64,000 nucleotides of DNA, from contig CAIURC010000186.1 of NCBI GenBank assembly GCA_903901425.1, forward strand, positions 1 to 64,000, read 5' to 3'. Position numbers and translations under genes: made by a program. Of the stretch, positions 2,487-60,494 are shown one piece after another. The first letter of the stretch is position 1. Each line of letters begins with the position of its first letter. Origin of the DNA: an uncultured Spartobacteria bacterium. Lineage in GTDB: Bacteria > Verrucomicrobiota > Verrucomicrobiia > Chthoniobacterales > Chthoniobacteraceae. The notes below the pieces were generated by a model, which saw only the letters and a list, made by a program, of their open reading frames with translations, was not told the DNA's origin and did not search any database.

Positions 2487-2610
2487 GCCGGAGTGTTTTG
2501 TTTATCAAGCTGTGGAGAGGGTTTGAATCGGACTGGTGGGGGGAATAATGGGAGTTGTGCTTTGCGCCGGGCCTAATTTTCGTTAGCGTCCGCGGGTTTT
2601 AAAGGAACAG

Positions 2611-6824: not shown

Positions 6825-6827
6825 CGC

Positions 6828-28726: not shown

Positions 28727-31700
28727 ATGAAACGTTCCATTCTCCCTCGCTTCCTGGAATCCGCAGGTTTGATTCAGGCACCCTTCCGCCTTCCACGCCG
28801 CCAGAAACCCAAAGGCTTCACCCGGGCACTGCGCCGCGCTTCCGGCCGGGTCCGGCCCTTGGGCAGTTCCCTGGGCGGCATGCCGACCGCACTGGCGGTG
28901 TGCGGGTTGTTGATGGCTGGCACCGGCGTTTCCGGGGCTGCCCAGCTCTACTGGGACACCGACGGCACGGCCGTGGGAAACGCGGTCGCGACCGGGGCCG
29001 GGCTGGGAGGCGGTTCCACGGTGTTTAGTTCGAATCCGTGGAATACTTCGAGCAACCTTTTTTGGGATGGCACCAGCGCCGCGCTGATGCTCTGGAACAA
29101 CGCCAACAACGACACCGCGATTTTTGCCGGAACGGCGGGACTGGTGAACATTGGCAACGACCCCATCCTGGCCGGCGGACTGCGCTTTCAAACGACCGGG
29201 TACACGCTGTCTCAGGTATCGGGTGCCGCGGGAAGTCTCACGCTTTCCGATGGAGCGGAAATCCACACGGGAACCGGGGTGTCCACGATCATCAGCATGC
29301 CGCTGACTGGGACCAACGTGTCGAAGACGGGTGCGGGGAGTCTGACTCTCTCGGGCGACAACAGTGGAATCACCGGGGCGATCACCCTGAATGCGGGCAT
29401 TTTGCGGGCTGCTGGCACCACCGCCAATACGCTGGGTACGGGGACCCTCGTCCTCGCGGGCGGCCGTCTGGAACTGGCCAACGAGGCGGCGGCCGCCTTG
29501 AACCGGAACACCACGGTCTCGGGAAATGCCGAAATTGTGATGGACCGCAGCGTGTTGGGCAATGCGCTCACGTACACTCTTGGTACCCTCGCGATGGGGA
29601 GCCAGGACCTTCAGGTCCGGTACGCCAATGCGATCAATACGCAGTTTTCGCGGTTGAACTTCGGGGCTTCCACGTTCTCGGGAACACCCACGTTCACGGT
29701 GGCAGCTAACGCCGAACTCGGGTTGGGCGCTCTGACGGGTGCCGGCGGCCTGGTCAAGCGGGGATTCGGTCTCCTCGCGCTGGGCACCCCTGCCGCAGGT
29801 TTCAGCGGCACCGTCGACATTCAAGCCGGTTCCATTCCGATCCGATTGACCCACCAGGACGCACTGGGTACCGCCGATGTTTCCTTTGATACCGCTGCAG
29901 GGCTCGAGTTTTACTCGGACTCGGCGGTGACCATCCCGAACAACCTCACCCTGAAGGGCAGCACCTACCTGACCGTCTTGCGGGCGACATCCGGGACGAA
30001 CGTCACCCAGACGTTTTCGGGCAGCCTGACGTTTGGAAACAATAGCTTGTTTTTGCTGAACAACAACGCGTACGCGTACAATTTCACCGGCCAGTGGAAT
30101 CTGAACGGGCCGGTTGCCACCCTCAATCACAACGGAGTGGGTGTCACCGTTGGCGGAAAAATCACCGGGCCCGGTCTTTTCAGCAAAGTCTCCGGGAATT
30201 CGTTGAACATCTCGAACGCGGCCAACGATTACACGGGTGGCACCAACGTCTTTGGAGCCTCGTTTGCGCTAAACGTAGTGGCGGGCGGGAAACTCGGGAA
30301 TGGGGGTTTGGTGTATGTTGCGCCTCAGGGGCTGCTCCGGGTCAATGCCGCCTCCGCCTTCACCGGGGCTGACAACGCCACGCTCCCGATGGCGGTGCAA
30401 TCCTCCCTCGTGGCGAGCGCCGGCGGCATCCTGAGCAACGTGTACCAGCAGCCGTTTGGGAATACCACCGCCACTCCGGGCGCCGGCATGGGGATTCTGG
30501 AGTTGGGCACGGATTTCGCCTTGGGCACGGCGGCCAATACCGTGGCAGTGAGCCCGTTTGGCGCCGCGCTCCGGCTCAACACTGCCGTTGCCAACAACCT
30601 CGATTTCTCAGCGATCGGCGCCCAGACGGCAGGCAACGGTCGGTTCTTCCTCGGCGCGGCCACAGACCGTACTTACAGCGGTGTGTTGACGGCCGACGGC
30701 GGGGCGGCTGCGGGCGGGGTTTACCGGCTGGGCGCGAATGATACCGGGGCCACCGTGCTGACGCTCAGCGCCACCGGAGCCGGCGGCGCATTGCCTGATC
30801 CGAGCAGCGGCAGCAACTCGGTGGTGATCGGGTCCCCTGTGTTCAACGTGAACACGGGGTTCACCCTGTCCACGGGCACCGTGGAGTACGGCGGGGCCCA
30901 GGGTTACACAGGAAGCACCACGATCAACCGGGGCAGCACCCTGCGCGTGACCAGCACCGCCAACACCCAAAACCTCGTTCCCAGCGCCAGCCAGCTCAAC
31001 GTGTTCGGCCAGATGCTGTTTTCCGGGGCGTACAACGCCGCCGCCACCAGCCCCCAGCAGACCAGCACCGGCGCCATCAACGTGATGAACACCCAGTTCA
31101 CCACCGGCGCGGGCCAGAACGTGGGTCTGGTGGTCAATAACAACGCCTACGCTTCCAGTGCCATCCAGCCCCGTCTGGCCGCCACCACCGGGCTCAACCT
31201 GAGCAGCGGCAATTTCCGGTACCTCGGGCCCACCGGTGCGTTTACCTCCAGCCAGAACCTCGGCACCGTCACGTTCGACGGCGGCAACCTCATCGAAGTC
31301 AGCCGCGGCAACGCCGCTGCCGACAATGCCAGTGTCGTCGTCAGCAACTTGGTCCGTTCCAACAATGGCGTCCTGACTCTCGTCACGACCGGAGGCGCCT
31401 TCAATGCCGCAACCGGGTCGGACACGAAGTTTACCGCCACCCAGATCAACGGGGCGGCTCCCTTGGTAACCAACGGAATGCTCGCACCGTGGATCATTGC
31501 CCAGACGGCTGCGCCCACCTTTGTGACTTCCGGTGCGACGGGGCTCGGCCCGGTGGCCTATGATGTCACGGCCACCACGAACACCGCGCTTCAGGGCGCC
31601 ACCGCCACCCAGAAGGTGGACGTGACAACGGCGCTGACCACCGGTGCGAACGCCTCCGTCTACGCGCTGCGCGTGGGGAACGTGGCCATCTCCGGCACCA

Positions 31701-43700: not shown

Positions 43701-46700
43701 GCACCGGGGCGCTGGTGTTGAACGGCAGCAACACCCTCTCCGGGAACATCACCCTCAACCAGGGCGAAACCCGTCTGATCAACCCGGTTTCCGGCTCGGG
43801 CACACCCATCAATTCCGTGACCAACGGACGGACCATCGTGCTCAACGGCGTCACCCTCACGTTGGATGCGCTGGTGGCTGCGCCCTCCGGCCGGGACTGG
43901 CAGATGCCCCACCCTGTGCGCGTCACGGGTTACTCGGACAGCGACATCCTGCTCAATGCGGACTCGTTCATCGGGAACTTTGATGTGAACAGGAACGCAA
44001 CAGGGTTCCAGCAACGGTTCAACAACCTCACCTTTGCGGATCTCGGTCCGAACAGCGCCGCCCGGCTCGATTCCTCGGGCAACATCACCGTGGGCGGCAC
44101 CACCACGCTCTCCCCGTTTACCTCCGTGGTCCGGGTTTCCTATTTCAACAACGGCCAGAACATTTTTGAAGGCCCCGTGGTGGGTTCGGGCAAGCTGGTC
44201 AAGATCGGGACGGCTGTGCTCGGGCTTTCCAGCCCGAACAACACCTTCGGGACCGACAACCAGATCAGCCTTGAAGTCTATCCGGCCGAACGCGGAGACA
44301 ACGCCGGAAGCACCGTGGCCAGTCTGACCCGGACGGGTACCCCGTTCGGCGTCGGCGATGTCCGGCTCCTGCCCGGGTCCAACCTGCGGCTCGCGGATCC
44401 CAGCAACATTTCCGCGACTCAGAAAGTGCTGGCGCTTTCCGACGGACTCGGTCTTTCGGCGGTAGGATTTGCGTTCAACGTCACCCAAAGCCAGTTGGCC
44501 AACCTGCTCGCCACAACGCCCACCGACGGCAAGGTGGCTTTCTCCACCACGGGCGCGCAACTGGGCGGAATCAACCTCGATGCCGGCTGGCAGTACAGCC
44601 CGCTCGACCTCGGTGCACTCGAGACCCAGCTCGGCGGCGGCAAGCTCTGGCTCGGTTCCACCCATTTCACCCGGTACGTCGCACCCAGCCTCGCTCCGGG
44701 GGCGGATGGCGTGTACCGGTTCGGTTCTGGCGGAAACCAGGGCGGTCTGGCGCTGGGCAACTTCATTGTGGCCAACCAGTTGACCGGTCCCAACCGGGTC
44801 GTGATCGGCGCCAACGTGGCCGACAACGGCCCGCTCTCGCAGGGAATGATCAACTCCCAGACCGGAAACGGAACCGCGGTCTACTTCTACAACCGCAACA
44901 ACTACACCGGCGGCACTCTGTTCAATGCGGGGACCGGCGTCACGGTGAACAACAACTTCGCGTTTGGCTCCGGCACACTCACCTTCGCCCAAAACGGCAA
45001 CGTGAGTTCCATCCGGCCCGACTTCGGGGCCGTGAATAACACCGGCTACATCCGGGTCGATGGCAACCTGTTCAACGTGGATCTGATGAACCCGGTGGAA
45101 CTCTTGGGTGACATCCGGTTCCGGGGCGATACAAACAACCGCAACCTCAATCTCCGTGGCCCGGTCAATCTCTCGCCCGGCGGAATCCCGGGAACCCGGA
45201 CCCTGAGCGCAGGAAACGAGGGTGCAGGCTCCCCGATTCTGGCCATTCAGGGCGTCATTTCCGGCGTGCCTGGCAGCAACGTCATCAAGAACGGGAACAC
45301 GGCCTTGCTTCTCACCGGCAACAACACGTTCCAAGGCAGCACCGAAATCGTGGACGGCCAGTTGATGGTCGGCGGCGATGTTTTCCCGAACGTCGCCGGG
45401 CCGCTGGGGGTCTCCAACACCCCGCTCGCCATCACCGGATCCTCCGGCGCCACCGCGCTGATCCTTGCCGGCAACGTCAACTTCGGACGCGACGCCACGG
45501 TGACTGCGGGTGCCAACGCCTATGTGCTGGCCCAGACGGGCTACCGGGCCGAGTTCTCCGGCGGGCTGAGCATCGGCACCTCCGGGGGTGTCGCTTCCGC
45601 GAACACGTTCACCGTTCTCCGCTCGTTTGCACGCAGTGCGAACCAAGCCCCCAGCAGCAACCTGATCGGTGCCCTGGATGTCACCGGGCCCATCACCGGC
45701 CCGGGCGCGCTCCGGATCGGCGATAACACACTCTTCAACAACGTTCCGGACAATGGCGTTGTCCGGCTCTTGAACAGTGTCCACGGATTCGGCACCAGCA
45801 CTTTCACGGGTGGACTCGAACTCCAAAACGGCCGTTTGGTCCTCGGAGCCGACACGCTCTGGACCGGCACGGCCTCGGCTCCGGTGATCCTCTCCGGCGC
45901 CATGGGCACCGGCGCACTGGCATTCGGCACCGGTGGTTCGGACGGCAATAACGACCGGGTGGGCGCCCTCGGCTCCAACGGACTGAACCTGACTCTACCG
46001 TACCTCCTCAACGGTGCACAGCTCACCACGGACCGCAACCTGACCGTCACGTTTGAAGGCCGGGGCAACCTCAACTTCAACCGGACCGGCTACAGCTTCG
46101 ATCTGGGAGCAGGCACCACTGCCGGCAGTGCCCGGCAGCGCAACCTGAACGTCACCACCCAGCAGGGTCTGGTCACCCTGGCGGCCAATCTGGTCACGAC
46201 CGGTTCGATCGGAGCCATCCCCACCAAGCAGGGTCAAGGGATCCTCGTGTACACCGGGTCCAACAACGCCGGAGTCATCAACTCCAGCGCCGCCTCCAAC
46301 CAGTTCCTGTCCTGGCGCTTGGAAGCCGGTTCCCTGGTCGTGGCCAATGACGCTGCGCTCGGCAACAACCTCACCATCGGCGCCGTGACCCGCCAGTCGG
46401 ATGTGCAGCTTGCAGGCGGCACACTCTCTGTGAACGGCACCTTCACCACCGACCACCAGTATCTGCTGGCCGCCAACAGCACCCTGAACGTCACGCAGGG
46501 CAACACCTTTACCCTGCGCGGCCAGAACACCGGAGCCAACGCCACCACCGCCCAAGCTCTCCAAGGCGCGTTTACCCTGACCAAAACCGGCCTCGGCACC
46601 TTGGCGCTCAACCCCGTGGTCACCGGCTCCACCAGTGGCGCCCTCAACTTCACCGGTTCCTCCGCCAACACCGGCCTGACCCTGGGCGGATTTAACCCGG

Positions 46701-49700
46701 GAGCCGTCTCCAGCGCCACCGTCAGCAACCAGCTCAACGCGGTCACCACGACCAACGTGAGCGGCACGCCTTTCCTGGCTGCCGCTGCCGGCAACGTGAT
46801 CACATTGAACGGCGGTCTCCTCGGTCTCACCGGGTCCACCGCGCAGACCATCACCCACACCGGGCCTGTGGTCCTCGGAGGTGGCGGCTACGTCTCCATC
46901 ACGCGGCCAACCACGGGCACCAACGCCCTCACCGCGCTCACCTTCAATGCGGCGGTCAACAAAGGCACCTTGGTGGTCATGGGAACCGACACCACCACCG
47001 CAGGCGCTTTCGGTACCGCCACAGGGACCCAGAAGTTCGTCCTGTCCGGAACCCTGCCGACGGTCACCAATGGCACCTTGGCGACGCCCAACATCGTTTT
47101 GCGCAACCTCGCGGCCAACTCGGATGCGAACTTCGCCTCCGTGATCGCCACACACGGGTTCCAGCTCCATTCGGCCACCACCACCACCAGTCTTGGCGCA
47201 TCTGCGGCCACCAGCATCGCGGACCTCAGCACGGCCACCACCATCGGTGCCGCCTCCGTCGCCGACGCGTTCGACGTCTACGCTCTGCGCACCTCGGCTA
47301 ACCTGGATGGTACCGACTCCACCGACGTGCTCCGGGTCAATAACGGCGGTCTGATCCTGAACGGCTCCACCGCCCCGGTCCTCGGCGGCACCACACCGTT
47401 CACTCTCCGGTTCGGCACCTCGGCGGCTGCAACGGATGCCTATGTCCATGTCCGCGAAGGCCAGGCCGGCACCGCCACCATCGCTGCCGACGTCCAGGCT
47501 CTCGACTTCATCAAGTTCGGCGCCGGGAACCTCCTCCTGAGCGGCACCAGCAACGTGATGGCTCCCACCACCGCCGGGCTCCGCACCCTGTTTGTCCAGG
47601 AAGGCCTGCTCCGGTTCGGATCGGCCGGAGCCGTGCCCACTGGCGGCGCCAACACCACCAACGGCGTCAACCTCATGGTCAACGACACCGGCGCCCTCGA
47701 CCTCAACGGGCTGAGCCTCGCCTTCGGCGGCCTCACCGGCACCGGGTTCGCCACCAACACCGCCGCCGGCGCAGGCACGCTCGTGCTCAACACGGGCCTT
47801 TCCGCCAGCCCCGTGTTTAGCGGCGTGCTGCAGGACGGCGCGGGGTCCCTCGCGCTGGTCAAGGACGGGATTGGCACCCAGACCATTTCCACGCCGCTCA
47901 CCATTGGCAACGGGGTCGGTCAGAACGCATACACGGGCGGAACCACGGTCCGCGCAGGCCAAGTGCTGAGTGCCACGCCACAGGCTCTCAGCACCGTTTC
48001 CTCGCTTGGTACCTTGGTGGTCAACAACCCGCTCGGACTCGGTACCGGCCCGGTCACCCTCGCGGGCGGCACTCTGACGTTCGGCAACTCGGTCAACGTG
48101 GAGGTGGTCGCGGGCCAGGCCGCACAACAGTTCGGATCTGGAAACGGGTACGACATCACCGTGGCCGCACTGAACAACTTCGGGCAGCCCAACGTGACTT
48201 CCATTTTGAGCGGACCCACGGCCAATGCGGCGGCCGCGCTGAACAACCTGAACGTCCAGTCCTCGGCTGTCACTCTGGCAGGGGGCGCTGTTGCTATTGT
48301 CAACCACGGGATCCTGATCAAGGGCACCACCACCTTCAACCAAGCCACCTCCTATCTCTCCGTATCTGCCTCGAGCCCGGGTACCCTCGCCGGGCCCGTG
48401 GTCGCCGGCGGCGGCACAGGCACCCTCCACAAACTCGGTGACGGCGTTCTGGTGCTGGCTGCCAACGGACAGGCGGCTTCCAACGTGGGCAACTGGGTTG
48501 TCAACCGGGGAATGTTGGAACTCCGGGGCGCGCGCGGGATGAACAACCTGCTGGGGGCTGGAGCCACGCTCACCCTCAACGATTCCAGCCTCAATTTCCG
48601 GTACGATGGCGATGGCCAGTACCTGTCTGAGGTCATTGACACGCACCTTTCCAACAACCTCGTCATTGGTTCCACGGCACCCGTCACTTCCGACCAGTTC
48701 CAAGGCAGCCGGAACTCCGTCATCGATTACAGGGGTTTGCTGGGCATCACCTCCTTCCTCAACAACGTCGGGCCTGGTGTCAAAACGGTGGCCATGGGCA
48801 ACCTCACCTTCGGGGGGCCGCTTGGTTCCCCGATCCTGACGCTCAACGGCGATCTCGGTCGCGGCATTGGCAACTACAACGCCCAGTTCAGCGGGATCAC
48901 CCTGACCCGGGACGGGTATCTGAGCCCAACCATCGAAATGACCGTCTCCGGGCCCGTCACAGGGAACGGCACCTTGTACAAGCAGAACTCCAACAATCTG
49001 TACCTGAACGGGGACAGCTCGGCGACCCTCCCGGGCGGGTTTGTCCAGAACGGCGGCACCACCTTCCTCGGGGCACGCTCCGGCGGGTTGTACACCCCCA
49101 GCGAGACCGCAAAGCTCACCTCGGGCAATATCCTCATCCAGCCCGGGACTGCCATCCAGTTCAACTCCACCGGCAACATCCCCGCCAACTGGACCGGGTT
49201 CCTCGATGTCCGTTCCCATGCCCTGAACTACGGCATCCTCCGCATTGCCACCGATGCCCCGCTGTCGGCCTTTAACTTCCGCGTGCCCACCCTCGGTGGA
49301 CCGCAGGATTCGGCCAACTACGTGTATTCCACCGGCCAGGGCTTTGACGGGATCGGAAGGTCCATGGGGGCCGTCGCTCTCAACCTTGCCTCTGTCTACA
49401 CCCAGAACCTCGACATGGCCCGAATCGGGGACGGCATGGCGTTCCTTGGGTCCTCGAACGACGGCCTCCGCACCGAGGGTGTCTACAACGGCACCACGCT
49501 CGGAGCCGGTGCCGGCAACCGGTACCGCCTCGGCGGCTCCGGGGGCACCCTGTATTTCGGCACCAATGGCGCCAGCAATGTGCTCACCGGCACCGCCAGC
49601 CTCGAGGCTGGCACCCCGTTCAACGGAACCATCATTGACAGCATTTCCACCGGCTCGGCCCGCGGCACGACCGTCCTGCTCCAGAACCAAAACTACACCG

Positions 49701-52700
49701 GCGCAACCATTGTGAACCGGGTTGCCGGGCTCGATTTCCGCGGCTCGTTAGCGTCCTCCTCCTTCGAAACGTGGGGCCGTCTCATCGCGGGCGGGCTCGG
49801 CGGCACTTTCGTGAACTCCGCCCAGACCGCAAACCTCGGCCCAGTCACGCTCCGGCCAGGGGGCGAACTCTGGTTGGATTATTCCACCGGCCTGCTCCCC
49901 GTGGGGCAGACTGAGGAAACAGGTGGCCAAGGCCGGTGGCTCAACTCCGCCCCGATCACGCTCGATAGCACTTGGCTCCGGCTGTACGGGAACCGCACCA
50001 TGGACCTCCAGGAAACCGTCGGCACCGTCACGGTGCGTGGCGGGAGCCAACTGTTTGTCCAGCGCGACATCGGCGGCAGGATTGCCGCGCTCCGCATGGG
50101 CGGCTTGGTTCAGGCCACGGATGTCGGGGGGATTTCCGGCAACAACGGCACACTCAACTTCCGGCCTGCTGCTGCGGACGCCAACGGCAACGCCCAGTTG
50201 GGATCGGATGAACGGGTGATGCTGACCGGTGGCGTTGCTGCGGTCCCAGGCGGAATTACCAACGGCATGGTGGCCCCATGGATGGTCGACATGCAAAGCC
50301 TGCAGTTCCTCACCTACCTCCCCAATAACGGCTTCGTCCATGCGGGATACAACCGGAGCCTCGCTGCCTCCACCATCTCCACCAACGGCATGGTCGCCCC
50401 CACCGACCGGACACGGGTCACAGGCAGCCTGACCATCAACAACAACACCACGCTGGAAACCTACGCGCTCCGGCTCGATGACAACGTCAGTATCGCGGCC
50501 CAGACGCCGGGAAGTGCCAGCAACGCCACGCTCCAGATCTGGAGTGGCGGCCTCATCCTCAACCCCCAGAACACGAGCAGCTCCCTCCGGATCAGTCCAA
50601 ACCGGCTGGTGGTCGGGGACGGTGTCAACCCGGCAGACTTCTACGTGTGGGCAAACAGGGTCGGCACGGTGTTCCTCGGGGATTCCAGCAGCACCGCCAA
50701 CGCCCAGAACGCCGGCCAGCTGGTCAATGCCCGGAACCTAATCTTCACCGGGGGTCAGGCAGACAACCCCATCAGCATCCTGGAACTTCAGGCCGACCAG
50801 CAGACCTTTACGGGCAACGTCATCGTCAATGCGGGCAACCTGGTCCTGCGCACCGCCCAAACCGCCGGCAGCTTCAAGCCGGCCGGCGGCCTCAACGTCG
50901 GCACCGGAGCGCGGTCCATGGTGGTCCTGAACAATCCGGGATACGGAACCTCCGGTTTGCCGACCGGTATCCTGTCTCTCAGGGCGGGTGGCAGTGTGAC
51001 GTTCGAAAACGGTCTGGTGATCGGCCAGAACAATTATTACGCACGGATCAGCACCGACCGTGACGGAAGTTCCGCCACCAACGCCAACATCACCCTCAAC
51101 GGCCCCCTCCGGTTCCTCGGATCGCCCGGCGAACAGGGCCAGTCCATCTATTTCCAGAACGGCAACGATTTCGACCTCGCGTTCTCGGGAGTCACCGATC
51201 TCGGTCCGGACGCCAATCAGGTCCATCTGCTGGTAGAGAGCACGAATGCCACCCACATTGTCCGCCTGGACGGCAAGGTGACCTCCACCGGTCTCAACCG
51301 TTCCGCTGCCCTGTTCAAGGACGGCGGTGGGATTCTCGACCTCGCCAATACCGCAGCGGGTCCGAACGATTTCAAGGGCGGCATCACCATGACCGGGGGC
51401 GAACTCCGGATCCGGGCGGTGTCCGGCACCATCGGATCGGGCACGCCATTTGCCCCGGTTCTTCACGGCGGGATCGGCGAAGGGCCGCTCCGCCTGTACG
51501 GTGGCACCACCCGGATCCGGATCGACGGGTCGGACGCCTCGGTGTTTGGGTATGACCGGATTTCACCGGGGTCGGCAGTGGGCGGCAACAGCCTGATTGT
51601 CAACGGACCATCCACGCTCACCCTGCAGCGGCTCACCAACATGGGGACCAGCACGACTTTCACCATGACCGGCAGCAGCAACTCGATCACCGGCCTTGGA
51701 AACTTCGCTTTCCCCGGAACCGCGGGTACTGCAGGCGGGGTGAACATCAGTCTGTATGTGGGGATGCCGGTGACGCATCCGAACCTGCCTGCGGGCACGG
51801 TGATCACGGCGATCAACTCGGACAGCTCGATCACGCTGAGTCAGAACGCCACCGCTTCCCTAACAGGCAGCCCGACTAGTGCCCCGATCATTTTTGGGGA
51901 TCCCACACGCGGCGTGGCGGCCAGCAACAACAGCTCCAACAAACTGGTCACCTTCAAGGATCTGACGATCGGGTCCCACGTGTTTACGTGGTCTGGGGAC
52001 AACACCTACGCGCTGGACATCGCTGGCCCTGTCAAGCTCGTCGGCAACCCGCGGTTTGATTTCGCCGGCCGGGCGGTCTTTAACGGGCCCATGGACGACA
52101 ACGGCGCCAATCTCCGGTTCGACAAGCTCGGCAGCGCCGATCTCTGGTTGAACAACACCAACGCCAACTTCGGGGGCGGAGTGCTGATCACCAACGCCGG
52201 CAACAACGGCTACGGTCATCTCCGGTTCGGCAGCTCCTTGGGCGGCACCAACTACGACGCAAACACCAGCCTCACCGCCACCGCCGGCACCGGCAGGGTC
52301 CGGATCAACCCCAACGCCGGGATTGTTCTGGAATCCCATCTCAACGTAGCGGGCACAGGTCAGCTCCAGATGGTGAGCGCGCCCTCCAACTACTCCATGC
52401 TGATCGTCCGGCGGCCTTATCCTGAACTCAACCAGGCCTACTTTAACAGGGTCCTGACGGCGGATTCCGAGGGCGTTCTTGCACTGGCCAATGACCAGGT
52501 CTATTTCGAGCCGCTCAACATGGCCGCCATCGGCAATGGCCGGTTCTTCCTGGCCGCCACAAACGGCACCGGCGGTGTCGGAGCCCATGCGTGGTACGCT
52601 GCACCCACCTTGCAGCCCGGAGCTGGCAATGTTTACCGGCTGGGCGGCGGCTTTGGACTGTTCCGGTTGGACACTGGATTCAACGGAGATGCCAACAATG

Positions 52701-55700
52701 GCTACTTGACGGAAACCGGGGTGTTGACGGGAACGGCCTCGGTCCTGATCGGCGCCCAGGGCATCTTGGGGAACGGCGGGGTGGAGTTGTACGATCTGAA
52801 CACGTACACCGGCGGCACCACGGTGAACCGCAGGTCCGGCCTCTATTTCGCCAAGGGCGCGAAAGCCGGGGCAGGTCCGCTTGGGGTGGGTGGTGCAGTC
52901 GATGTGTTCGGATATCTGGAAGCGTTTACACGTCGAAACAACCAGGGGGCTGTGGTCGACAACGGCACGTTCCTGGCCAACGGCAGCACCACGGCCAACG
53001 CCTACACGGTCAACCTGCATCCAGGCGCCCGGTTGCACCTCCAGAACAACAACTTCACCGCTTCAGCCACCATGGTGAACCGTTGGGGTGACACGACTCC
53101 CATCAACCTCAATTCCAATATCTTCACCCTCACCGGGCCGCAGGCGGATGGTAACCTGACAAGCGCCGAAGTGGTCGGAGCCATCAACCTGACAGGCGGC
53201 GGCAACGAGATTGACCTGTTCCAGCAGGCCGGCAACAGGCAGGTGGCACTCCAGGCCGACAGCCTCAACCGGGCCGGCAATGCGACACTCGTTCTCCGTA
53301 CCTCAGGTGCAGGGTTCCTCGGGCTCGCCCCGGCCAACAACAGCGCCCGGTTCACCCTGACCTCCGCACCCACCGTCACCAACGGGATGCTGCCAGGATG
53401 GGTGGTTTCACATACCGACAACCAGTACGTCACCACGGGCGCCAACGGCCTCGTCCCGGCCGGGTGGGACGTTACCGTCTCATCCGCAACCTTCGGCACC
53501 GCCACCACCGCCACGCAGAAAGTCGATCTCACGGCCAGCAGCACGCTCCAGTCCGATGTCTCTGTGTACGCGCTGCGCACCGGAGCCAACAACATCACCA
53601 GTGCCGCCGGCCAGTACAACACCATCACCTTCGGCGGCTCCGGTGCCAACATCGGCGGTTTGCTGTTCTCCGGCAATTCCACCATCAACGCCAACCTTAG
53701 GTTCGGTGCCACGGGCACCAACGAAGCCCTCATTTATACAGGGTCCAACATCACTGGCCAGGTGTCCGGCGACATCTCCGCGTCCGCCATCACCCTGTTC
53801 GGTGCCGGGATATTCCAGGTCAACAAGGACCAGACCGAGGCCGCACGCGGGACCGGCAACGGTCTCACTGCGCCGTGGTTCCTGAACCAGGGCCAGTTGA
53901 ACCTTCAAACCTTCGGTGCCGCCGGCACCGGCCCGATCACGCTCGGTGGCGGCTCAGGCAACAACTCGCTCACACCTGGACTGGGTGTCAACATGCTCAA
54001 CGGCGTCGAAAACAACGCCGCGACCCTTGTCCTCCAGGCCAACCCGGGCTCTGTGCTGTCCACCCCCTACAGCTTTGGACTGGTGACCATTAAGGATCAG
54101 GGCCGGGTATATGTGAATCTCCAGGGCGATGATCGCACGGTCCGGATCTCGGATGTGGCTGTCGATTCCACCGATACCACCGGCCAGGTCCCGGCACGGG
54201 CGCGGTTCGAGATCATCAACGTCCGCTCCATGCTCACCGCAGGCAATCTGACCCTGACCGGGTCTGGCGGCAGCATCGTGGACGTCATGCGGGTGCAGAC
54301 GGATGGCAACATCAACGCCGGCGGTCAGGCTCTGGGAATCAATGGCACCACAGGCCTCAGCACCGGTGTGTCCTTCGCCTCCCTCAACAACGGCGGCAAC
54401 GCCCAGCGCGGCCTCCAGAAATGGGGCAACGGCTACATGTTCATCCGCGGCGACAGCAGCGCCACGTTCAATGGCCCCGTCCGCATCGAACAGGGCCCCA
54501 TTCAGGTCAACCACGATGGCGCACTCGGCACCGGCCCCATCACAGTCGCCCGGTACGGCGTGCTCGACATCAACAAAGCCGGCTGGACCATGACCAACTC
54601 CGGCCTCACCTACAGCGCCGGCTCCGCCGAACGCTGGAGCATCGATGGCGCACGCAACAACCAGACCCTCAACCTCGGTGCCGCCACCCTCCAGATCAAC
54701 AGCGACCAGTTCAACGCCACCGGCGTCACGGTCCGCCTCAACGGCGGCGGGGTCGAAGGCTGGCTCCGCGGCGATGACTTGATTGACGGCAACTCCGGCG
54801 CCCTGTTCCGCACCGTCGGCTCGGGCGTGACCTTCGCTCTCGACGGCAATTCCACCATCGGACAGAACCTCACCGAAGGCGGCCAGTACGGCGGGATCGA
54901 CACCGGCAGGATTGTGACGGCGGACAATGCAATCGGCACGTCTGCCCGGGGCATCATCCTGGATGTCCGGGGCGCCATCACCGGCACCGGCAGCCTGACC
55001 AAACAGGGCTATGACATGGTGATTCTGGCCGGAGCCAACACCTATTCCGGTGGCACCAACGTCACCCAAGGCATCCTCCGGATCGGGCGGACCAATGCCC
55101 TGAACACCAGCGGCGACCTGTTTACCACCAGCACTGCGGTCTTGGACATGAACGGCTTCAACCAGATGGTGCGGAACCTGAGCTCGAGCAGCGCCAACAC
55201 GGCGGGGATCACCAGCGGGTTCATCACCAACAGCGCCACCAACCAGGTCACGCTCACCGCGGGCAACAACAGCACCACCGACAGCACCTACCACGGCGTG
55301 ATCCAGAACAACGTGGCGCTTGCCAAGACCGGCTCCCGCAAACTGACCCTGACCGCCAACCAGACCTATCTCGGTTCCACCACCATCGCCCAAGGCACCC
55401 TCGAGCTCGGCAACGGCGGCGCCTCCGGTTCACTCCCAGCGGGTTCCGCGGTGATCAACAGCGGCACTCTCATGGTCAACCGGAGCGACGCCTACACCCT
55501 CACCAACACCGTGTCGGGCACGGGCGGCGTAACTCAGGCCGGGCTCGGGACCCTGACACTTGCAGCCACCAACACCTTCAGCGGACCGCTGACGGCTGCC
55601 GGGGGCACCCTGGCATTCGCTTCCGGCTCCAACCTCGGGGACGGATCAGCCACCAACTCCCTCAACCTGAACGGCGGTACCGTCACCAGCACGGTGGCCT

Positions 55701-56464
55701 CGCTGAACTTGGGCAACAACCGGGCCGTCAACGTGGGTAGCTTCGGCGGCACCGTCCAGGTCGACACCGCCCGGCAGCTGGAGTTCTCCGGCCAGATCGG
55801 GGGCTCAGGCACCCTGAACAAGACCGGGGCGGGCACCCTGGTGATGTCGAACATGGCCAACGGGTTCACCGGGACGGCCAATGTCAACGACGGCACCCTG
55901 AGCCTCACCGGATCTCTGGGCAGCGCCTCGGCGGTGAACGTGAACAATGGCGGCACCCTGCTTCTGAACAACTCCAACCGGATCTCCGACTCGGCCGGCT
56001 TGGGCTTGGGTGGCGGCCAAGTCCGGTTCGGCACCGGAATTTCAGGGGCGGCCGAGACCATGGGTGCCCTGACGTTGAACTTCGATTCCGTGATCGACCT
56101 CGGAACGGGCTCGGCAAACCAGCTGAAGTTTAGTTCCATCGTGATCGGGCCGAGCTTCAATTCGTTGAAGATCTACAACTACACGGCCGGAGTCGGGGAA
56201 CAGTTCCTCAGTGACCCGAACCGGGACCGGTTGGTGTTTGCCGGGTTGTTGGGGCTCAATGCCGGGCAGCTGAGCCAGATCCAGTTCTTCTCGGATAGCG
56301 GCTCCACATTGCTTGGGCCGGCCGGTCAGATCGCGTTTGGTCTCCCGGGCGAGGTGGAGCTGGCTCCGGTGCCGGAGCCTTCCACATGGATGGCGGGTGG
56401 GTTGCTGCTCGGACTGCTGGGGTACCGGGAACGGCGTCGTCTCCGGAAAGCGCTGGCGCTCTGA
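28727..56464 (+). CDS. Giant autotransporter-associated beta-strand repeat protein with PEP-CTERM sorting signal
   Basis: A single open frame of 9245 codons encodes a huge exported protein. Residues 1-52 are a long basic N-region. Residues 53-72 are the hydrophobic signal core (TALAVCGLLMAGTGVSGAA), after which the mature protein begins QLYWDTDG. The rest is parallel beta-helix-type repeat sequence rich in Gly, Asn, Thr and Ser, with very many 'GTGTLTLSG', 'NTYSGGT' and 'LGTGPV' sentences, as in autotransporter-associated beta-strand repeat proteins. Eight super-repeats carry two alternating landmarks, an IGDGRxFLG box followed by YRxGG and a YALRT box. The C-terminus is VPEPSTWMAGGLLLGLLGYRERRRLRKALAL-like: a PEP motif near residue 9215, a hydrophobic helix and an Arg cluster, the signal recognised by exosortases. 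I saw no autotransporter barrel and no Cys in the mature part by eye. An ATG at 28880 would give a standard-length signal peptide. The product is probably a surface fibre, adhesin or sheath-like protein; the ligand is unknown. Confidence 0.93.
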   Translation: MKRSILPRFLESAGLIQAPFRLPRRQKPKGFTRALRRASGRVRPLGSSLGGMPTALAVCGLLMAGTGVSGAAQLYWDTDGTAVGNAVATGAGLGGGSTVFSSNPWNTSSNLFWDGTSAALMLWNNANNDTAIFAGTAGLVNIGNDPILAGGLRFQTTGYTLSQVSGAAGSLTLSDGAEIHTGTGVSTIISMPLTGTNVSKTGAGSLTLSGDNSGITGAITLNAGILRAAGTTANTLGTGTLVLAGGRLELANEAAAALNRNTTVSGNAEIVMDRSVLGNALTYTLGTLAMGSQDLQVRYANAINTQFSRLNFGASTFSGTPTFTVAANAELGLGALTGAGGLVKRGFGLLALGTPAAGFSGTVDIQAGSIPIRLTHQDALGTADVSFDTAAGLEFYSDSAVTIPNNLTLKGSTYLTVLRATSGTNVTQTFSGSLTFGNNSLFLLNNNAYAYNFTGQWNLNGPVATLNHNGVGVTVGGKITGPGLFSKVSGNSLNISNAANDYTGGTNVFGASFALNVVAGGKLGNGGLVYVAPQGLLRVNAASAFTGADNATLPMAVQSSLVASAGGILSNVYQQPFGNTTATPGAGMGILELGTDFALGTAANTVAVSPFGAALRLNTAVANNLDFSAIGAQTAGNGRFFLGAATDRTYSGVLTADGGAAAGGVYRLGANDTGATVLTLSATGAGGALPDPSSGSNSVVIGSPVFNVNTGFTLSTGTVEYGGAQGYTGSTTINRGSTLRVTSTANTQNLVPSASQLNVFGQMLFSGAYNAAATSPQQTSTGAINVMNTQFTTGAGQNVGLVVNNNAYASSAIQPRLAATTGLNLSSGNFRYLGPTGAFTSSQNLGTVTFDGGNLIEVSRGNAAADNASVVVSNLVRSNNGVLTLVTTGGAFNAATGSDTKFTATQINGAAPLVTNGMLAPWIIAQTAAPTFVTSGATGLGPVAYDVTATTNTALQGATATQKVDVTTALTTGANASVYALRVGNVAISGTNTVTVGANASATDGAGVIFNSTGAQTHAVNWSFGTSGAREAVIYNSTLNQATTLSGTVNATGLTKSGPGNLTLTGTNTGAGATSLLSGTITINQGTLTAATPANVGTRANPTAPYTVDSAPIRLAGGNFAVTGATVGNANYLQNWTVANDSTFTSVTQILPRFGSLTFPTRLGGAPDPTLLTLNGGGILFTGSTVLNQAAILNATAGTGGIGALDHNYLAGAVSGTGRLEKWGTGDVTLLNGLSSSASVTQNSYSGGTIVQQGVLASGAGAAADTPFGSGSVTVQPGATLRLAHPSNVPGGIIVNSDLTGLGTVGLAYVGPVPTLTFNNTNLRGPFNGVLGIDVVGFNTTIDQAAIGGGTTFLGATVGRANTGTGIAVYGSSVFTGNLLPSGSVYRIGGGGGTLNLHRANQLTGARTVQFGALSNGLQAASVALINGTNGIVVLNQPNDISGESWFNTGQTVQLGHDQALGTSTLVFNGGILQGDAFQRVNGFAQGRVLANPVKFAGDITLNSAFNGSPSDLTFTGPVSLSNSTVGGALRVITVNTPTYAPGLGSIATFSGVISDGDSANNGLVKNGTGTLRLTNTNTYSGVTTINGGNIVISSDANLGTNPVVYLNNGALSTWQTSFTLGKRLVVPFSTTGWLDSGEGLTLTQSPSSTWEGGGRLTKIGSGTLVLTAPNSFANFTVSSGVVEASSADQLGVGDIEFQNSPSAFYSNGGIPMLRFTENIPALNRPLRPNSTGAISVAPGKTVTLTTGALAGGVIHKLGTGTLQLAAAGGTAVPWSVNNGVLEILSTAGANPLGNNATLNGGTLRITNTSAADYSAGNSGGTFNFNGGGMVYLDPQSDNLAQLSVGSLVRNNQGTFLLGVSPVGNLAGAAASGIRSRVIATNVLGAPAASANFNGILSPSMLRLGDGLTSGDANFLSYGANGLETGTPTTPVTTLTGLQPAAVATITTPQTLTGNNSIYALKTTADITGGSLQVVANNATTQLGGILLNGAGLAAPTVSSNLFFGLDGQNVTLLNGLHYGEGLVYTSGGYSTGTPTLSGTVTANNFTKSGFGPLLLSGTNRISGFIAAQSGSIQFAGAGAQPAHNTLQLNDAATLDLAGGTVKLGALSGTAGVVTNTSAMPGTLNLLSPGDYTFTGNLRDGAGSVRVFKGGTGILRLGQNSGNNPVANVNTHTGGFALFAGQLFLNTPYALGANNSTFEFLGGLLTLNMTGAGPGLPTIIGSPGATSGGVNMVVKGTSTALGTDNNGVFSTGFQDQYYQFNNLTLGGSIFTTTPQTDAQNLRFAGTITGHNAAVFNVTTGGTAAGRSVVDLSGTIVDAASNAFAVNKTGSGTLRISGTANTYTGGTNVFSGGAIQITSTTGTPVGTGPVTVYPGGFLRLGGSGSLSGASSVRVLSSISAYGAVVLDNNFQPTLSATAMNSFLGGAVQIGMPTFAGNLDMSQIGDGRQFLGTYASNNLSTNGSQFIGTLQPGAENRYRVGANTNAGHQLYFSGPDNVFTGAGTTLEVGSPIPTVTYAQNVPTNSTGIVVIQNSNNYTGGTLVNRGSQLYVSAGGATTASTPLGTGPVEIRDSAALLYLGPLGSAFNNGAQNNVHRLRILGEIGLDNNNGLYTGAGGQGRWGDAAGITLDGGRFRLRGGPNFDIYEKIGTVNLGLGHGYLTLNRVNSGTAVLEVEDIVRGSDRGTLLLESTAAGTLNAATAFERLLVKTPTFANAGATNTGAGATAGIAPVWMLDNTSNTFLSYQGPTLGLQPLLSTATPQAGQVAFSHIISGAFTTGLNAGTATVDVTANSALGDSPSIYALRLGTMALTTANAAAVTANTVSGSNLLTNTNTTNLVVGQPVSGTGIAAGTVITRIVDGTSFEISNAVGLTQTGASVTPQFVLNVTSGGVIANNTSEITHNAPIRNPGGEVILFRPNVAGITIFNGPITATGITKAGLGDVRMNMDNRGTLTGDIVVSGDNWFRLENQYVAGGDPANPYAPTNKVISNGARLHSATALSFLGTEVVVNQDTRFGWNFATLGKLTVNGPTNNTFNTPTVIGNLSNGGFFVAGATTLNGPTSIFTANGSDGWLQGGLTGTGALQKWGDAALQIGGDSSSYSQPITVNRGTLISMNGSTLKPFGTGPITVNPGSVIGITAPSNVNPGQLTINTDGSGVGVLNMQYVGALPSVTWNSSLSTADGVIAIDVVGYSTPLNLATASPNGRLFLGAGAFNQGASYTAPTLGVGANNTYRIGGGGGQFWINSPVLTGTASVQAGVYTAGPQAQGIAPDRGGTSILLLNTPNSFTGGLTLNSGTLLEVNHENALGTGPLIFNGGSLRSTDQGLVRMTQVMNIPNEVVLLGNADFQNRGTNANLILSGPVRLSSSAYGTAEGAARTIFQNNPVNRVILSGTVSDGTGTTFNHLLKNGAGVLELRGTNTYTGITQVDLGTLLIGSDGAIPVGSQVLMNNTGLLAVWDRNYTLNNDVTFNSITAGFSVGTARVLTQSVSSNIAGLTLNKIGDGTLRLQGNNSFSLMNITGGVVEVSANANLGDTQLGGGNAITFNSPSAMMPYTGVLRVTESFTTQRALTIAASTTGGSTGGTVDIATGKTLILNGPVQSSTASTFGISKTGNGTLLLNGASTWSAANASSPAFSVTQGTVVIPAAAGLSTSANANTALNGGTLALITPSTAAVTFGNASNNRFFAQGGGRIQLAPFAGGQSTLNALALTRPAGSNGTLVLDVGAGFTLGSNAANGVRVIPTNLFNEGLARASSLVNGIYAPVFVGNSGGVPFFLANDATHGLVPYAGATATSFGSATATSINDFTTAQNLAATATTYAIRTNADITAAPGALLRVSSVGAALAGGQGGLLTYGTPTLSAPMLFDPTGAAGNGNSGEGVLYTGGTTTLSGTVLANSLTVFGGGTTVLAGNTVVLGGHQALGLNVQQGTLQVGSTAAVHPMNTAVNLNLGANLDLNGNTFAVGVLNGAFNNSGGTVGNSSTTAGGTLLVNGQLNSTFTGRIVDALGAGTRTTALVKAGPGTLTLAAPRADSPEASNNTFTGGTSLYQGTLKLENPFALGGFNSATQPVLNLYGGVLQLNADAGSVNGVAQFGSQTGPGLTLNVLGSAVINVDRLGASLQVPTTGNMIQVGDLNLTSQTLSIGSSGVPSLPLTGSTNAFVTTNGSNLVTGLNSTAGLYVGMPVTNANVPAGTTIAAINSNSSITLSQNATGGTAGTLSFGNSSIGVAGVLQPSSFGNVTTVANSPTVTVPSTAGFYVGMAVSGTNIPSNTVVTAITNSTTLTLSQNATAPSSTGVLNTLAATSFFSAVTTRVNDTLVTLPSNATTAGYYVGMPISGANIPFGSIVTEVGGGGSANNIRISNFATATSTTGAIFPGQSNAGYGLRIAGTTSVPSTFAILNLLGAGGASGGRMELAGPITGSGNLVRTGLGFSENYRNLVISGTNNTGFTGGLDIQSGVVQITGTSGSPLGDAKVRVYPQATLRLAGNGSLNNPANLTVLGTTNTVPYVLLDGDFNPTVLNATNFSSAFGQVLGLGRVMWNTPLNMATIGDGRAFLVSGVGDSYYLAPTLGVGADNTYRIAGGSSTLVFAGADNVLTGTARVQIGNERNNWQGGVVGFTNIVTLRNSNNYSGGTQVTRGITLNIETGAAPGGGTPLGTGPVEIFGTVALSNDPQGYNGQASFFNAATGQNANTFILRPGGRLLIRDMVGSVTIAGGQGRWADATGLDLNGGEFRFDGGDRMQSVETVGDLTISKGSSVTVARTNTGSATLNTGTLIRSGNGTLSLASNSANRMGIPNDSNTNQFDRFTVNANSLPRGGTTVNGLGVVNGGMAPVWIVDATSNSYVGYDALGQRTGFQPLLSTGAPVVGTLEYNRRLTSAGTFTAGLTAGTDIVDISGGAQTFAAADNPIIYALRTNQNLVSPGGAGNTLTLASGGMLFYGNPPTVNPVQASGTTALAAGNTAPMTLNFGANEAVLFTAANTTATVNAQITQTAGGLTKFGTGALVLNGSNTLSGNITLNQGETRLINPVSGSGTPINSVTNGRTIVLNGVTLTLDALVAAPSGRDWQMPHPVRVTGYSDSDILLNADSFIGNFDVNRNATGFQQRFNNLTFADLGPNSAARLDSSGNITVGGTTTLSPFTSVVRVSYFNNGQNIFEGPVVGSGKLVKIGTAVLGLSSPNNTFGTDNQISLEVYPAERGDNAGSTVASLTRTGTPFGVGDVRLLPGSNLRLADPSNISATQKVLALSDGLGLSAVGFAFNVTQSQLANLLATTPTDGKVAFSTTGAQLGGINLDAGWQYSPLDLGALETQLGGGKLWLGSTHFTRYVAPSLAPGADGVYRFGSGGNQGGLALGNFIVANQLTGPNRVVIGANVADNGPLSQGMINSQTGNGTAVYFYNRNNYTGGTLFNAGTGVTVNNNFAFGSGTLTFAQNGNVSSIRPDFGAVNNTGYIRVDGNLFNVDLMNPVELLGDIRFRGDTNNRNLNLRGPVNLSPGGIPGTRTLSAGNEGAGSPILAIQGVISGVPGSNVIKNGNTALLLTGNNTFQGSTEIVDGQLMVGGDVFPNVAGPLGVSNTPLAITGSSGATALILAGNVNFGRDATVTAGANAYVLAQTGYRAEFSGGLSIGTSGGVASANTFTVLRSFARSANQAPSSNLIGALDVTGPITGPGALRIGDNTLFNNVPDNGVVRLLNSVHGFGTSTFTGGLELQNGRLVLGADTLWTGTASAPVILSGAMGTGALAFGTGGSDGNNDRVGALGSNGLNLTLPYLLNGAQLTTDRNLTVTFEGRGNLNFNRTGYSFDLGAGTTAGSARQRNLNVTTQQGLVTLAANLVTTGSIGAIPTKQGQGILVYTGSNNAGVINSSAASNQFLSWRLEAGSLVVANDAALGNNLTIGAVTRQSDVQLAGGTLSVNGTFTTDHQYLLAANSTLNVTQGNTFTLRGQNTGANATTAQALQGAFTLTKTGLGTLALNPVVTGSTSGALNFTGSSANTGLTLGGFNPGAVSSATVSNQLNAVTTTNVSGTPFLAAAAGNVITLNGGLLGLTGSTAQTITHTGPVVLGGGGYVSITRPTTGTNALTALTFNAAVNKGTLVVMGTDTTTAGAFGTATGTQKFVLSGTLPTVTNGTLATPNIVLRNLAANSDANFASVIATHGFQLHSATTTTSLGASAATSIADLSTATTIGAASVADAFDVYALRTSANLDGTDSTDVLRVNNGGLILNGSTAPVLGGTTPFTLRFGTSAAATDAYVHVREGQAGTATIAADVQALDFIKFGAGNLLLSGTSNVMAPTTAGLRTLFVQEGLLRFGSAGAVPTGGANTTNGVNLMVNDTGALDLNGLSLAFGGLTGTGFATNTAAGAGTLVLNTGLSASPVFSGVLQDGAGSLALVKDGIGTQTISTPLTIGNGVGQNAYTGGTTVRAGQVLSATPQALSTVSSLGTLVVNNPLGLGTGPVTLAGGTLTFGNSVNVEVVAGQAAQQFGSGNGYDITVAALNNFGQPNVTSILSGPTANAAAALNNLNVQSSAVTLAGGAVAIVNHGILIKGTTTFNQATSYLSVSASSPGTLAGPVVAGGGTGTLHKLGDGVLVLAANGQAASNVGNWVVNRGMLELRGARGMNNLLGAGATLTLNDSSLNFRYDGDGQYLSEVIDTHLSNNLVIGSTAPVTSDQFQGSRNSVIDYRGLLGITSFLNNVGPGVKTVAMGNLTFGGPLGSPILTLNGDLGRGIGNYNAQFSGITLTRDGYLSPTIEMTVSGPVTGNGTLYKQNSNNLYLNGDSSATLPGGFVQNGGTTFLGARSGGLYTPSETAKLTSGNILIQPGTAIQFNSTGNIPANWTGFLDVRSHALNYGILRIATDAPLSAFNFRVPTLGGPQDSANYVYSTGQGFDGIGRSMGAVALNLASVYTQNLDMARIGDGMAFLGSSNDGLRTEGVYNGTTLGAGAGNRYRLGGSGGTLYFGTNGASNVLTGTASLEAGTPFNGTIIDSISTGSARGTTVLLQNQNYTGATIVNRVAGLDFRGSLASSSFETWGRLIAGGLGGTFVNSAQTANLGPVTLRPGGELWLDYSTGLLPVGQTEETGGQGRWLNSAPITLDSTWLRLYGNRTMDLQETVGTVTVRGGSQLFVQRDIGGRIAALRMGGLVQATDVGGISGNNGTLNFRPAAADANGNAQLGSDERVMLTGGVAAVPGGITNGMVAPWMVDMQSLQFLTYLPNNGFVHAGYNRSLAASTISTNGMVAPTDRTRVTGSLTINNNTTLETYALRLDDNVSIAAQTPGSASNATLQIWSGGLILNPQNTSSSLRISPNRLVVGDGVNPADFYVWANRVGTVFLGDSSSTANAQNAGQLVNARNLIFTGGQADNPISILELQADQQTFTGNVIVNAGNLVLRTAQTAGSFKPAGGLNVGTGARSMVVLNNPGYGTSGLPTGILSLRAGGSVTFENGLVIGQNNYYARISTDRDGSSATNANITLNGPLRFLGSPGEQGQSIYFQNGNDFDLAFSGVTDLGPDANQVHLLVESTNATHIVRLDGKVTSTGLNRSAALFKDGGGILDLANTAAGPNDFKGGITMTGGELRIRAVSGTIGSGTPFAPVLHGGIGEGPLRLYGGTTRIRIDGSDASVFGYDRISPGSAVGGNSLIVNGPSTLTLQRLTNMGTSTTFTMTGSSNSITGLGNFAFPGTAGTAGGVNISLYVGMPVTHPNLPAGTVITAINSDSSITLSQNATASLTGSPTSAPIIFGDPTRGVAASNNSSNKLVTFKDLTIGSHVFTWSGDNTYALDIAGPVKLVGNPRFDFAGRAVFNGPMDDNGANLRFDKLGSADLWLNNTNANFGGGVLITNAGNNGYGHLRFGSSLGGTNYDANTSLTATAGTGRVRINPNAGIVLESHLNVAGTGQLQMVSAPSNYSMLIVRRPYPELNQAYFNRVLTADSEGVLALANDQVYFEPLNMAAIGNGRFFLAATNGTGGVGAHAWYAAPTLQPGAGNVYRLGGGFGLFRLDTGFNGDANNGYLTETGVLTGTASVLIGAQGILGNGGVELYDLNTYTGGTTVNRRSGLYFAKGAKAGAGPLGVGGAVDVFGYLEAFTRRNNQGAVVDNGTFLANGSTTANAYTVNLHPGARLHLQNNNFTASATMVNRWGDTTPINLNSNIFTLTGPQADGNLTSAEVVGAINLTGGGNEIDLFQQAGNRQVALQADSLNRAGNATLVLRTSGAGFLGLAPANNSARFTLTSAPTVTNGMLPGWVVSHTDNQYVTTGANGLVPAGWDVTVSSATFGTATTATQKVDLTASSTLQSDVSVYALRTGANNITSAAGQYNTITFGGSGANIGGLLFSGNSTINANLRFGATGTNEALIYTGSNITGQVSGDISASAITLFGAGIFQVNKDQTEAARGTGNGLTAPWFLNQGQLNLQTFGAAGTGPITLGGGSGNNSLTPGLGVNMLNGVENNAATLVLQANPGSVLSTPYSFGLVTIKDQGRVYVNLQGDDRTVRISDVAVDSTDTTGQVPARARFEIINVRSMLTAGNLTLTGSGGSIVDVMRVQTDGNINAGGQALGINGTTGLSTGVSFASLNNGGNAQRGLQKWGNGYMFIRGDSSATFNGPVRIEQGPIQVNHDGALGTGPITVARYGVLDINKAGWTMTNSGLTYSAGSAERWSIDGARNNQTLNLGAATLQINSDQFNATGVTVRLNGGGVEGWLRGDDLIDGNSGALFRTVGSGVTFALDGNSTIGQNLTEGGQYGGIDTGRIVTADNAIGTSARGIILDVRGAITGTGSLTKQGYDMVILAGANTYSGGTNVTQGILRIGRTNALNTSGDLFTTSTAVLDMNGFNQMVRNLSSSSANTAGITSGFITNSATNQVTLTAGNNSTTDSTYHGVIQNNVALAKTGSRKLTLTANQTYLGSTTIAQGTLELGNGGASGSLPAGSAVINSGTLMVNRSDAYTLTNTVSGTGGVTQAGLGTLTLAATNTFSGPLTAAGGTLAFASGSNLGDGSATNSLNLNGGTVTSTVASLNLGNNRAVNVGSFGGTVQVDTARQLEFSGQIGGSGTLNKTGAGTLVMSNMANGFTGTANVNDGTLSLTGSLGSASAVNVNNGGTLLLNNSNRISDSAGLGLGGGQVRFGTGISGAAETMGALTLNFDSVIDLGTGSANQLKFSSIVIGPSFNSLKIYNYTAGVGEQFLSDPNRDRLVFAGLLGLNAGQLSQIQFFSDSGSTLLGPAGQIAFGLPGEVELAPVPEPSTWMAGGLLLGLLGYRERRRLRKALAL
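37190..37380 (+). repeat. VGMPV-type cassette 1 in giant protein
   Basis: Encodes SGSNLLTNTNTTNLVVGQPV followed by SGTGIAAGTVITRIVDGTSF. This short cassette differs in style from the beta-strand repeats around it and recurs four more times in the gene. Confidence 0.65.
41190..41815 (+). repeat. VGMPV-type cassettes 2-4, tandem, in giant protein
   Basis: Three tandem copies of a 60-75 residue cassette. They have the pattern (L)YVGMPVxxAN(V/I)PxGTxxxAI, then SxxITLSQNAT. They lie at about 41190-41365, 41420-41590 and 41635-41815. The third copy is the most divergent (YYVGMPISGANIPFGSIVTE). Confidence 0.7.
51655..51895 (+). repeat. VGMPV-type cassette 5 in giant protein
   Basis: Encodes LYVGMPVTHPNLPAGTVITA followed by INSDSSITLSQNATA, very close to cassette 2. 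Its codons are mostly G-ending (GTG, CTG, ACG, GCG), unlike the C-ending codons of the surrounding gene. Confidence 0.7.
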
Positions 56465-57735: not shown

Positions 57736-57790
57736 GAGTCCATAGAGTCCATAGAGTCCATAGAGTCCATAGAGTCCATAGAGTCCATAG
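57736..57790. repeat. 9-bp tandem repeat (GAGTCCATA) in a convergent gene junction
   Basis: Six perfect copies of GAGTCCATA fill most of the 103-bp gap between the TPM gene stop (57702) and the M16 peptidase stop (57806). The unit differs by one base from the GTCCATAGC array at 18122-18191, which also separates two convergent genes. Confidence 0.95.
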
Positions 57791-57805
57791 ATCCCCCCTT
57801 CTCCA

Positions 57806-59932: not shown

Positions 59933-59938
59933 GGGGAA

Positions 59939-60391
59939 TCAGGTCAGCCGGGCAGCCAGCGCCTGGCTGAGCGTTCTCCCATCCACGCGGCCCCCGGCAA
60001 GTTCGGTGGCGCGTTTCATCACCAGCCCCATCTGCGCTTTTCCGGTGGCTCCGGTTTCTGCGATGCACTGGTCCAGAAGCGCCGCGATTTCTTCCGGAGA
60101 AAACGGTTTGGGCAGGAACGTCCCGAGCACCTCGAGTTCGGCCCGCTCCTTGGCTGCCAGATCAGGCCGGTTGCCTTTGGTAAATCCCTCAATCGCGTCG
60201 TGCCGTTTCTTGGATTCCTTCCGCACCACTGCGAGCGCCGCCCCCTCGTCCAACCTGACCTCGGCGCCGCCCGCCTCAATCGCGGCGTTTTTCAGTGCGC
60301 TCTTCAGCATCCTCAGCACAGAGAGCCGGTCGGCGTCTCTCGCCTTCATCGCGGCTTTGAGTTCCTCATCAACGCGGGCTTGCAGATCCAT
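59939..60391 (-). CDS. YqeY/GatB-related domain protein
   Basis: A 150-residue soluble protein of the YqeY family, related to the C-terminal tRNA-binding domain of the amidotransferase subunit GatB. Typical features are the N-terminal helices (LQARVDEELKAAMKARDADRLSVLRMLKSALKNAAIE), VVRKESKKRHDAIEGFTKGNRPDLAAKERAE and LEVLGTFLPKPFSPEEI, followed by GKAQMGLVMKRATELAGGRVDG. Its precise role is unknown although it is widely conserved. First gene of the minus-strand operon with ispD and the M16 peptidase; divergent from mscL across 103 bp. Confidence 0.93.
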   Translation of the reverse strand: MDLQARVDEELKAAMKARDADRLSVLRMLKSALKNAAIEAGGAEVRLDEGAALAVVRKESKKRHDAIEGFTKGNRPDLAAKERAELEVLGTFLPKPFSPEEIAALLDQCIAETGATGKAQMGLVMKRATELAGGRVDGRTLSQALAARLT

Positions 60392-60494
60392 GGCTCCAAC
60401 CTAACCCGGAGAGCAGGCCGTGCAACCCATTTCCCGGCTCCCGCCGCCGGAGCGCACGGGCTGGACAGGCCTGTCTGGCATGGTAGTGGGGGGG

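Follow-up and report, generated by a model that had tools for sequence, protein, structure and literature searches.

A 9245-residue PATR-repeat protein encoded by one unbroken, selected gene in a verrucomicrobial draft genome: a probable exosortase-sorted surface fibre

Introduction

Can a single reading frame of nearly 28 kb in a draft bacterial genome be a real gene, and if so, what kind of protein does it make? The question is raised by a frame in a stretch of 64,000 nucleotides (hereafter the window, to which all coordinates refer). The window comes from contig C186 of a draft genome that totals 5.1 Mb in 224 contigs, and the organism is probably close to Chthoniobacteraceae, in the Verrucomicrobiota. 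According to a survey of UniProt (PMC11573180), proteins of more than 5000 residues number in the tens of thousands across life, and bacteria of the PVC group are among those enriched in them. The product of the frame, here called the giant, falls in this size class, but giants with PATR repeats and a PEP-CTERM tail are not described in the accessible text of that survey. No description of such proteins from Verrucomicrobiota was found in the literature searched, which mostly lay outside subscription journals.

Results and Discussion

Integrity of the reading frame

28727..56464, + strand: coding sequence of the giant, 9245 aa, ATG start, about 920-929 kDa (ORF list and translation)

The translation contained no internal stop over 9245 codons, compared with about 115 expected by chance in 9246 codons (order-1 Markov simulation, same DNA) or about 91 from position-specific base frequencies; the remaining five frames held 35-524 stops. 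GC was highest at the third codon position in each of the 31 blocks of 900 bp across the gene. Codon choice was similar to that of the neighbouring housekeeping genes, with some shifts (e.g. Val, Phe), and the ATG start is backed by conservation from residue 2 on in the giants of a congener. The single uninterrupted frame reported in the initial annotation was thus borne out over its whole length, and the gene is one real, selected, unbroken frame.

That several genes or repeats were misjoined or collapsed during assembly is extremely improbable. The genome is a draft in 224 contigs, and in a homologue from another genome (G018 C44) two frames, of 3549 and 4323 aa, take the place of one, indicating that errors or decay do happen in such genes. 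However, the longest exact repeat within the gene was 21 bp and no tandem array was found in it, which makes collapse of repeats in short reads, a danger raised in the initial annotation, very unlikely; repeat collapse or misjoining was rejected on these two grounds. Moreover, codon phase is kept along the whole gene, and giants collinear with it are present in independent assemblies, one of them a complete frame of 7486 aa (G018 C31).

Exclusion of cysteine

Position-specific base frequencies predict about 170 cysteines for the giant. It has one, residue 59, which lies within the signal peptide, and each of the five remaining frames contains 92-785. Cysteine is also nearly absent from two further giants of the source genome (on contigs C208 and C127) and from one of a congener (G002 C3), and the exclusion is less strict in the giant of genome G020 (18 cysteines in a frame of 10747 residues). 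Since type 5 secreted proteins have been described as poor in cysteine (PMC8151025), the near-absence of this residue is evidence for the reading frame and also for export of the product.

Conservation between genera

The closest complete homologue is the 7486-residue giant G018 C31, from another genus. It is collinear with the giant in three blocks, 5590 residues of the window protein in total, at 33-40% identity:

31520..35113, + strand: residues 932-2129, similar to G018 giant residues 825-2081 (collinear, 33% identity)
41849..51562, + strand: residues 4375-7612, similar to G018 giant residues 2306-5393 (collinear, 35% identity, E = 0)
51947..55408, + strand: residues 7741-8894, similar to G018 giant residues 5424-6487 (collinear, 40% identity)

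Residues 2130-4374 had no counterpart in this homologue. Over 5095 aligned codons, identity at codon positions 1, 2 and 3 was 0.537, 0.620 and 0.392, compared with 0.298, 0.258 and 0.354 when the pairing was shuffled; where the amino acids were identical, four-fold sites agreed at chance level (0.365 vs 0.352). These codon comparisons indicate that purifying selection has acted on the giant protein since the split from another genus. The initial annotation had argued for selection from the length of the frame; the argument now has the conservation by codon position and the exclusion of cysteine behind it.

Taken together, homologues in other genomes (G018 C31, G018 C44 and G012 C72) cover 9038 of the 9245 residues. 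The G012 C72 homologue has at least 7886 residues and is limited by its contig. Identity of the giant to the homologues in G018 and G012 is 33-45%. The G018 C44 homologue (L156/L157, G018:C44:38000-70000) consists of two consecutive frames, whose matches follow one another along the window protein; the split arose either by decay or by assembly error.

A matching N-terminus was found in one congener only, with which the giants align over approximately 220-370 N-terminal and 490 C-terminal residues. In that congener, a PATR frame of 5247 aa is followed just downstream by a giant frame that reaches at least 10301 aa and runs off its contig end (G002 C3; L135/L136, 118000-151581).

Genomic setting and distribution

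The flanking genes are unrelated to the giant: leuS, hemB and a gene for a GNAT protein, then genes for a TPM-domain protein (weak match) and an M16 peptidase, and ispD. In three congeners, no giant was present beside hemB or beside the M16 peptidase gene and ispD (stretches of about 9-18 kb), which makes it an accessory gene. No neighbours common to the giant and its G018 homologue were found, and consensus scans for a promoter and a terminator near the gene were empty.

Residues 7741-8873 were matched at E <= 1e-20 in 6 of the 213 genomes of the order, in three genera of one family. Judged from these sequence matches, the homologous giants form a patchy, accessory group in three genera. A gene without current use, kept only briefly after its acquisition, would fit both this narrow distribution and the lack of the giant at the hemB and M16 peptidase loci of the three congeners. 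It would hardly be expected to have stayed under purifying selection after the two genera separated, as the 5095 aligned codons show, nor to have a frame with zero stops, and we consider this explanation improbable.

Large frames of this type are widespread beyond the homologous group. PATR frames of 5000-10747 residues, some of which run off contig ends, were detected in at least 10 of the 40 genomes of the same family (G000, G002, G006, G007, G012, G013, G018, G020, G024 and G030 at least). The initial annotation gave one to a few thousand residues as the usual length of proteins of this class; that figure, and the exceptional size it would imply, find no support in this family, where lengths of 5000-10747 residues are frequent. 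Giants of such size are already common there, and the protein of the source genome is a striking example.

Several other features of the window were recorded. A 549-aa frame at 59279-60928 is partly antisense to ispD (59081-59932) and is probably spurious, since family support was found on the ispD strand only. An operon-like set at 2611-8936 encodes a MacB-type tripartite efflux system (outer-membrane factor, HlyD, MacB). An intergenic 9-bp minisatellite, (GTCCATAGA)n, occurs at 18122-18191 and 57736-57791; the 26-mer TCCATAGAGTCCATAGAGTCCATAGA has exact copies at five places in the source genome, and none was found when 17 relatives were searched.

N-terminus and export

28727..28939, + strand: long signal peptide, residues 1-71 (sequence and N-terminal alignment; cleavage placed by eye near SGA/AQLYWD)
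28760..28804, + strand: basic N-terminal extension motif SAGLIQAPFRLPRRQ (consensus SSGLLRAPFRLPRRK), common to three giants of the congener G002
28946..29206, + strand: conserved N-terminal module, LYWD..W..NNDTA.FWGTAG (alignment and profile search)

The signal peptide was read from the sequence and its conservation in the alignment, not from a predictor. A profile of the conserved module recurred in 18 of the 40 family genomes. Even with the threshold relaxed to E 10, residues 1-130 matched no Pfam family. Membership of the basic extension in the ESPR family (PF13018) was ruled out, as there was no Pfam match, and the extension is only analogous. Nor was there a Pfam match in the giant to the N-terminal TPS (haemagglutination activity) domain of two-partner secretion exoproteins. 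Export of the giant is probable and strongly suggested by the evidence as a whole.

PATR repeats and internal modules

29324..55906, + strand: 32-37 scattered PATR repeats, residues 200-9060 (PF12951/TIGR02601 matches)
48881..50350, + strand: PATR-poor module copy 1, residues 6719-7208
51929..53326, + strand: PATR-poor module copy 2, residues 7735-8200

Matches to PF12951 and TIGR02601 extended along the whole protein, and together with the PEP-CTERM-type tail described below they agree with the class of protein named in the initial annotation. Spacing of the repeats was irregular (about 70-780 residues), with eleven gaps of more than 250 residues. Both copies of the PATR-poor module (approximately 470 residues) matched one stretch of a relative (L080). 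Between the PATR repeats, no other domains were found in Pfam or NCBIfam. The composition is even along the chain, which is rich in Gly, Thr and Asn, has few charges and is almost without Cys.

C-terminal region

54947..55963, + strand: C-terminal part of the modelled right-handed parallel beta-helix, model residues 1-339 (AF2 model, structural matches)
55964..56365, + strand: conserved C-terminal cap, residues 9080-9213, apparently autochaperone-like (alignment, model, structural matches)
56366..56437, + strand: PEP-CTERM-type tail, PVPEPSTW followed by a hydrophobic helix and RERRRLR (alignment, profile scores, model)

The last 505 residues were modelled by AF2 as an all-beta solenoid followed by a C-terminal helix (pLDDT 75, pTM 0.72), the tail helix being model residues 478-504. 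For a PATR-poor piece from the middle of the chain (residues 6600-7350), confidence was too low for the model to be used (pLDDT 43). The continuous beta-helix suggested in the initial annotation is therefore supported for the last 475 or so residues before the tail helix and not for the middle piece. From these models, the giant probably folds as a beta-helix at least in part.

A Foldseek search of the C-terminal model against the PDB gave no match at E <= 0.001, and its list was headed by autotransporter passengers. In a second-look alignment of this list, from which the Z scores are taken, the model aligned with Ssp (Z 14.9, rmsd 3.5, 186 aligned residues) and with IcsA (Z 14.3, rmsd 3.1, 204 aligned residues; chain range 483-736). 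The alignments ran to model residue 474-475, Ssp residue 635 and IcsA residue 736. The autochaperone of IcsA comprises residues 606-720 (PMC5767081). As the IcsA range spans this region and the count of aligned residues puts at least about 79 of them in the cap, the modelled cap appears to resemble the autochaperone region of autotransporter passengers. Sequence matches of the giant were obtained to IcsA (1.6e-5), Ssp (2.6e-7) and fusolisin (7e-5); the profile matches to Ssp and fusolisin cover PATR and adjoining strands only and end before the autochaperone.

The tail (VPEPSTW, hydrophobic stretch, RERRRLRK) scored 19.4 bits against PF07589 (E 0.0011), just under the cut-off of 20.7, and taken alone 12.3 bits against TIGR02595, below the cut-off of 16. 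The tail of the C127 paralogue passes, and PF07589 was matched by all 13 of the 13 aligned sequences. An exosortase gene (TIGR02602, 115.5 bits vs a cut-off of 105.55) is located on contig C88, with a second, weaker copy on C34. Four PATR proteins with PEP-CTERM-type tails are encoded in the source genome (C186, C12, C208 and C127). These results strongly suggest that the giant is sorted by exosortase. An ice-binding-like domain (PF11999, E 3e-46) precedes the PATR/PEP-CTERM end of one relative in the C-terminal alignment; the row of this relative, judged by eye, is probably L079:9200-10717.

Proposed role and mechanism

Starting from what was observed (the gene, its selection, the exclusion of cysteine, the domain order and the exosortase genes), we infer a route in five steps and a role. 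The chain would enter Sec via the long basic signal peptide and, being without cysteine, could cross the periplasm unfolded and with no disulfides. The PEP-CTERM helix would then stop it in the inner membrane, where exosortase would cut or transfer it. After passage of the outer membrane, the autochaperone-like cap may seed a beta-helix as the PATR-rich chain folds. On balance it is likely that the giant is an exported, exosortase-sorted protein of the surface or extracellular matrix, folded as a long beta-helical fibre and probably serving adhesion or a biofilm matrix.

A beta-helix contains about 20-25 residues and rises 0.48 nm per turn. By this general geometry, a continuous helix over the length of the giant would be roughly 180-220 nm long. 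The irregular spacing of the PATR repeats with its eleven long gaps, the PATR-poor module present twice, and the presence or absence of large blocks between homologues (e.g. residues 2130-4374 vs G018 C31) would also suit separate beta-solenoid modules joined by linkers, giving a long flexible surface polymer and not one rigid fibre. The even composition is that expected of one fold type and speaks against such an arrangement, to which we nevertheless assign a substantial probability, a little below even.

With regard to function, PEP-CTERM proteins have been tied to exopolysaccharide, soil and biofilm, and have been proposed as a protein component added to exopolysaccharide (PMC1569441). Pfam and NCBIfam searches with the giant found no domain for binding sugars or other ligands. 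Both points would suit a bulk component of a matrix built of extracellular polysaccharide, or else a coat with a shielding role, in place of an adhesin. Solved PATR-type beta-helix structures, however, include surface adhesins as well as proteases, and we put this reading forward tentatively, at appreciably less than an even chance. For the fibre preferred here, the role may be in adhesion or in the matrix.

Relation to known systems

The giant has PATR repeats, the beta-helix of the modelled C-terminal region, a cap that appears autochaperone-like, a long signal peptide and very low cysteine in common with type Va autotransporter passengers (IcsA, Ssp, fusolisin). Unlike type Va autotransporters, it has no C-terminal beta-barrel, ends in a PEP-CTERM-type tail and is far longer. 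The barrel family PF03797 was absent from the giant and had its only match in the genome on contig C170. Lacking the barrel, the giant is not a classical autotransporter; it is passenger-like in fold and lies outside the autotransporter family. The C170 protein (L013, G000:C170:1-6000, frame 2-3172), which combines PATR repeats with a PF03797 barrel, is a true autotransporter and shares the genome with the PATR proteins that end in PEP-CTERM-type tails.

With substrates of the PEP-CTERM/exosortase (EpsH) system from environmental bacteria, of which Verrucomicrobium spinosum has 65 (PMC1569441), the giant shares a signal peptide, a PEP-type tail with a helix and a basic end, an exosortase gene elsewhere in the genome and a Ser/Thr/Asn-rich product of a stand-alone gene. 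It differs from them in its size and in a tail that, taken alone, scores slightly below the curated cut-offs. Apilactobacillus kunkeei has surface proteins, Giant1-5 (3000-8000 aa; PMC12863079), that are likewise very long and extracellular, with predicted beta-solenoid parts and several per genome, but they come from a Gram-positive organism and consecutive genes, and the likeness is one of description.

A more speculative and rather unlikely proposal is that, in this lineage, passengers of the autotransporter type became single-chain fibres sorted by exosortase. The cap would have been kept and the PEP-CTERM tail would replace the barrel; a continuous beta-helix near 200 nm could then be possible without a barrel, and the lineage-specific extension (SSGLLRAPFRLPRRK) would serve export of giants.

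Significance

The giant group raises the question of how a chain of approximately 920 kDa without its own barrel passes the outer membrane. The near-absence of cysteine from a frame of 9000 residues offers an easy check that can assist in separating true exported giants from artefacts, and it could serve for many predicted huge proteins. The results show that one gene of about 28 kb in a bacterium can be genuine and under selection, with amino acids kept across genera while synonymous sites are saturated.
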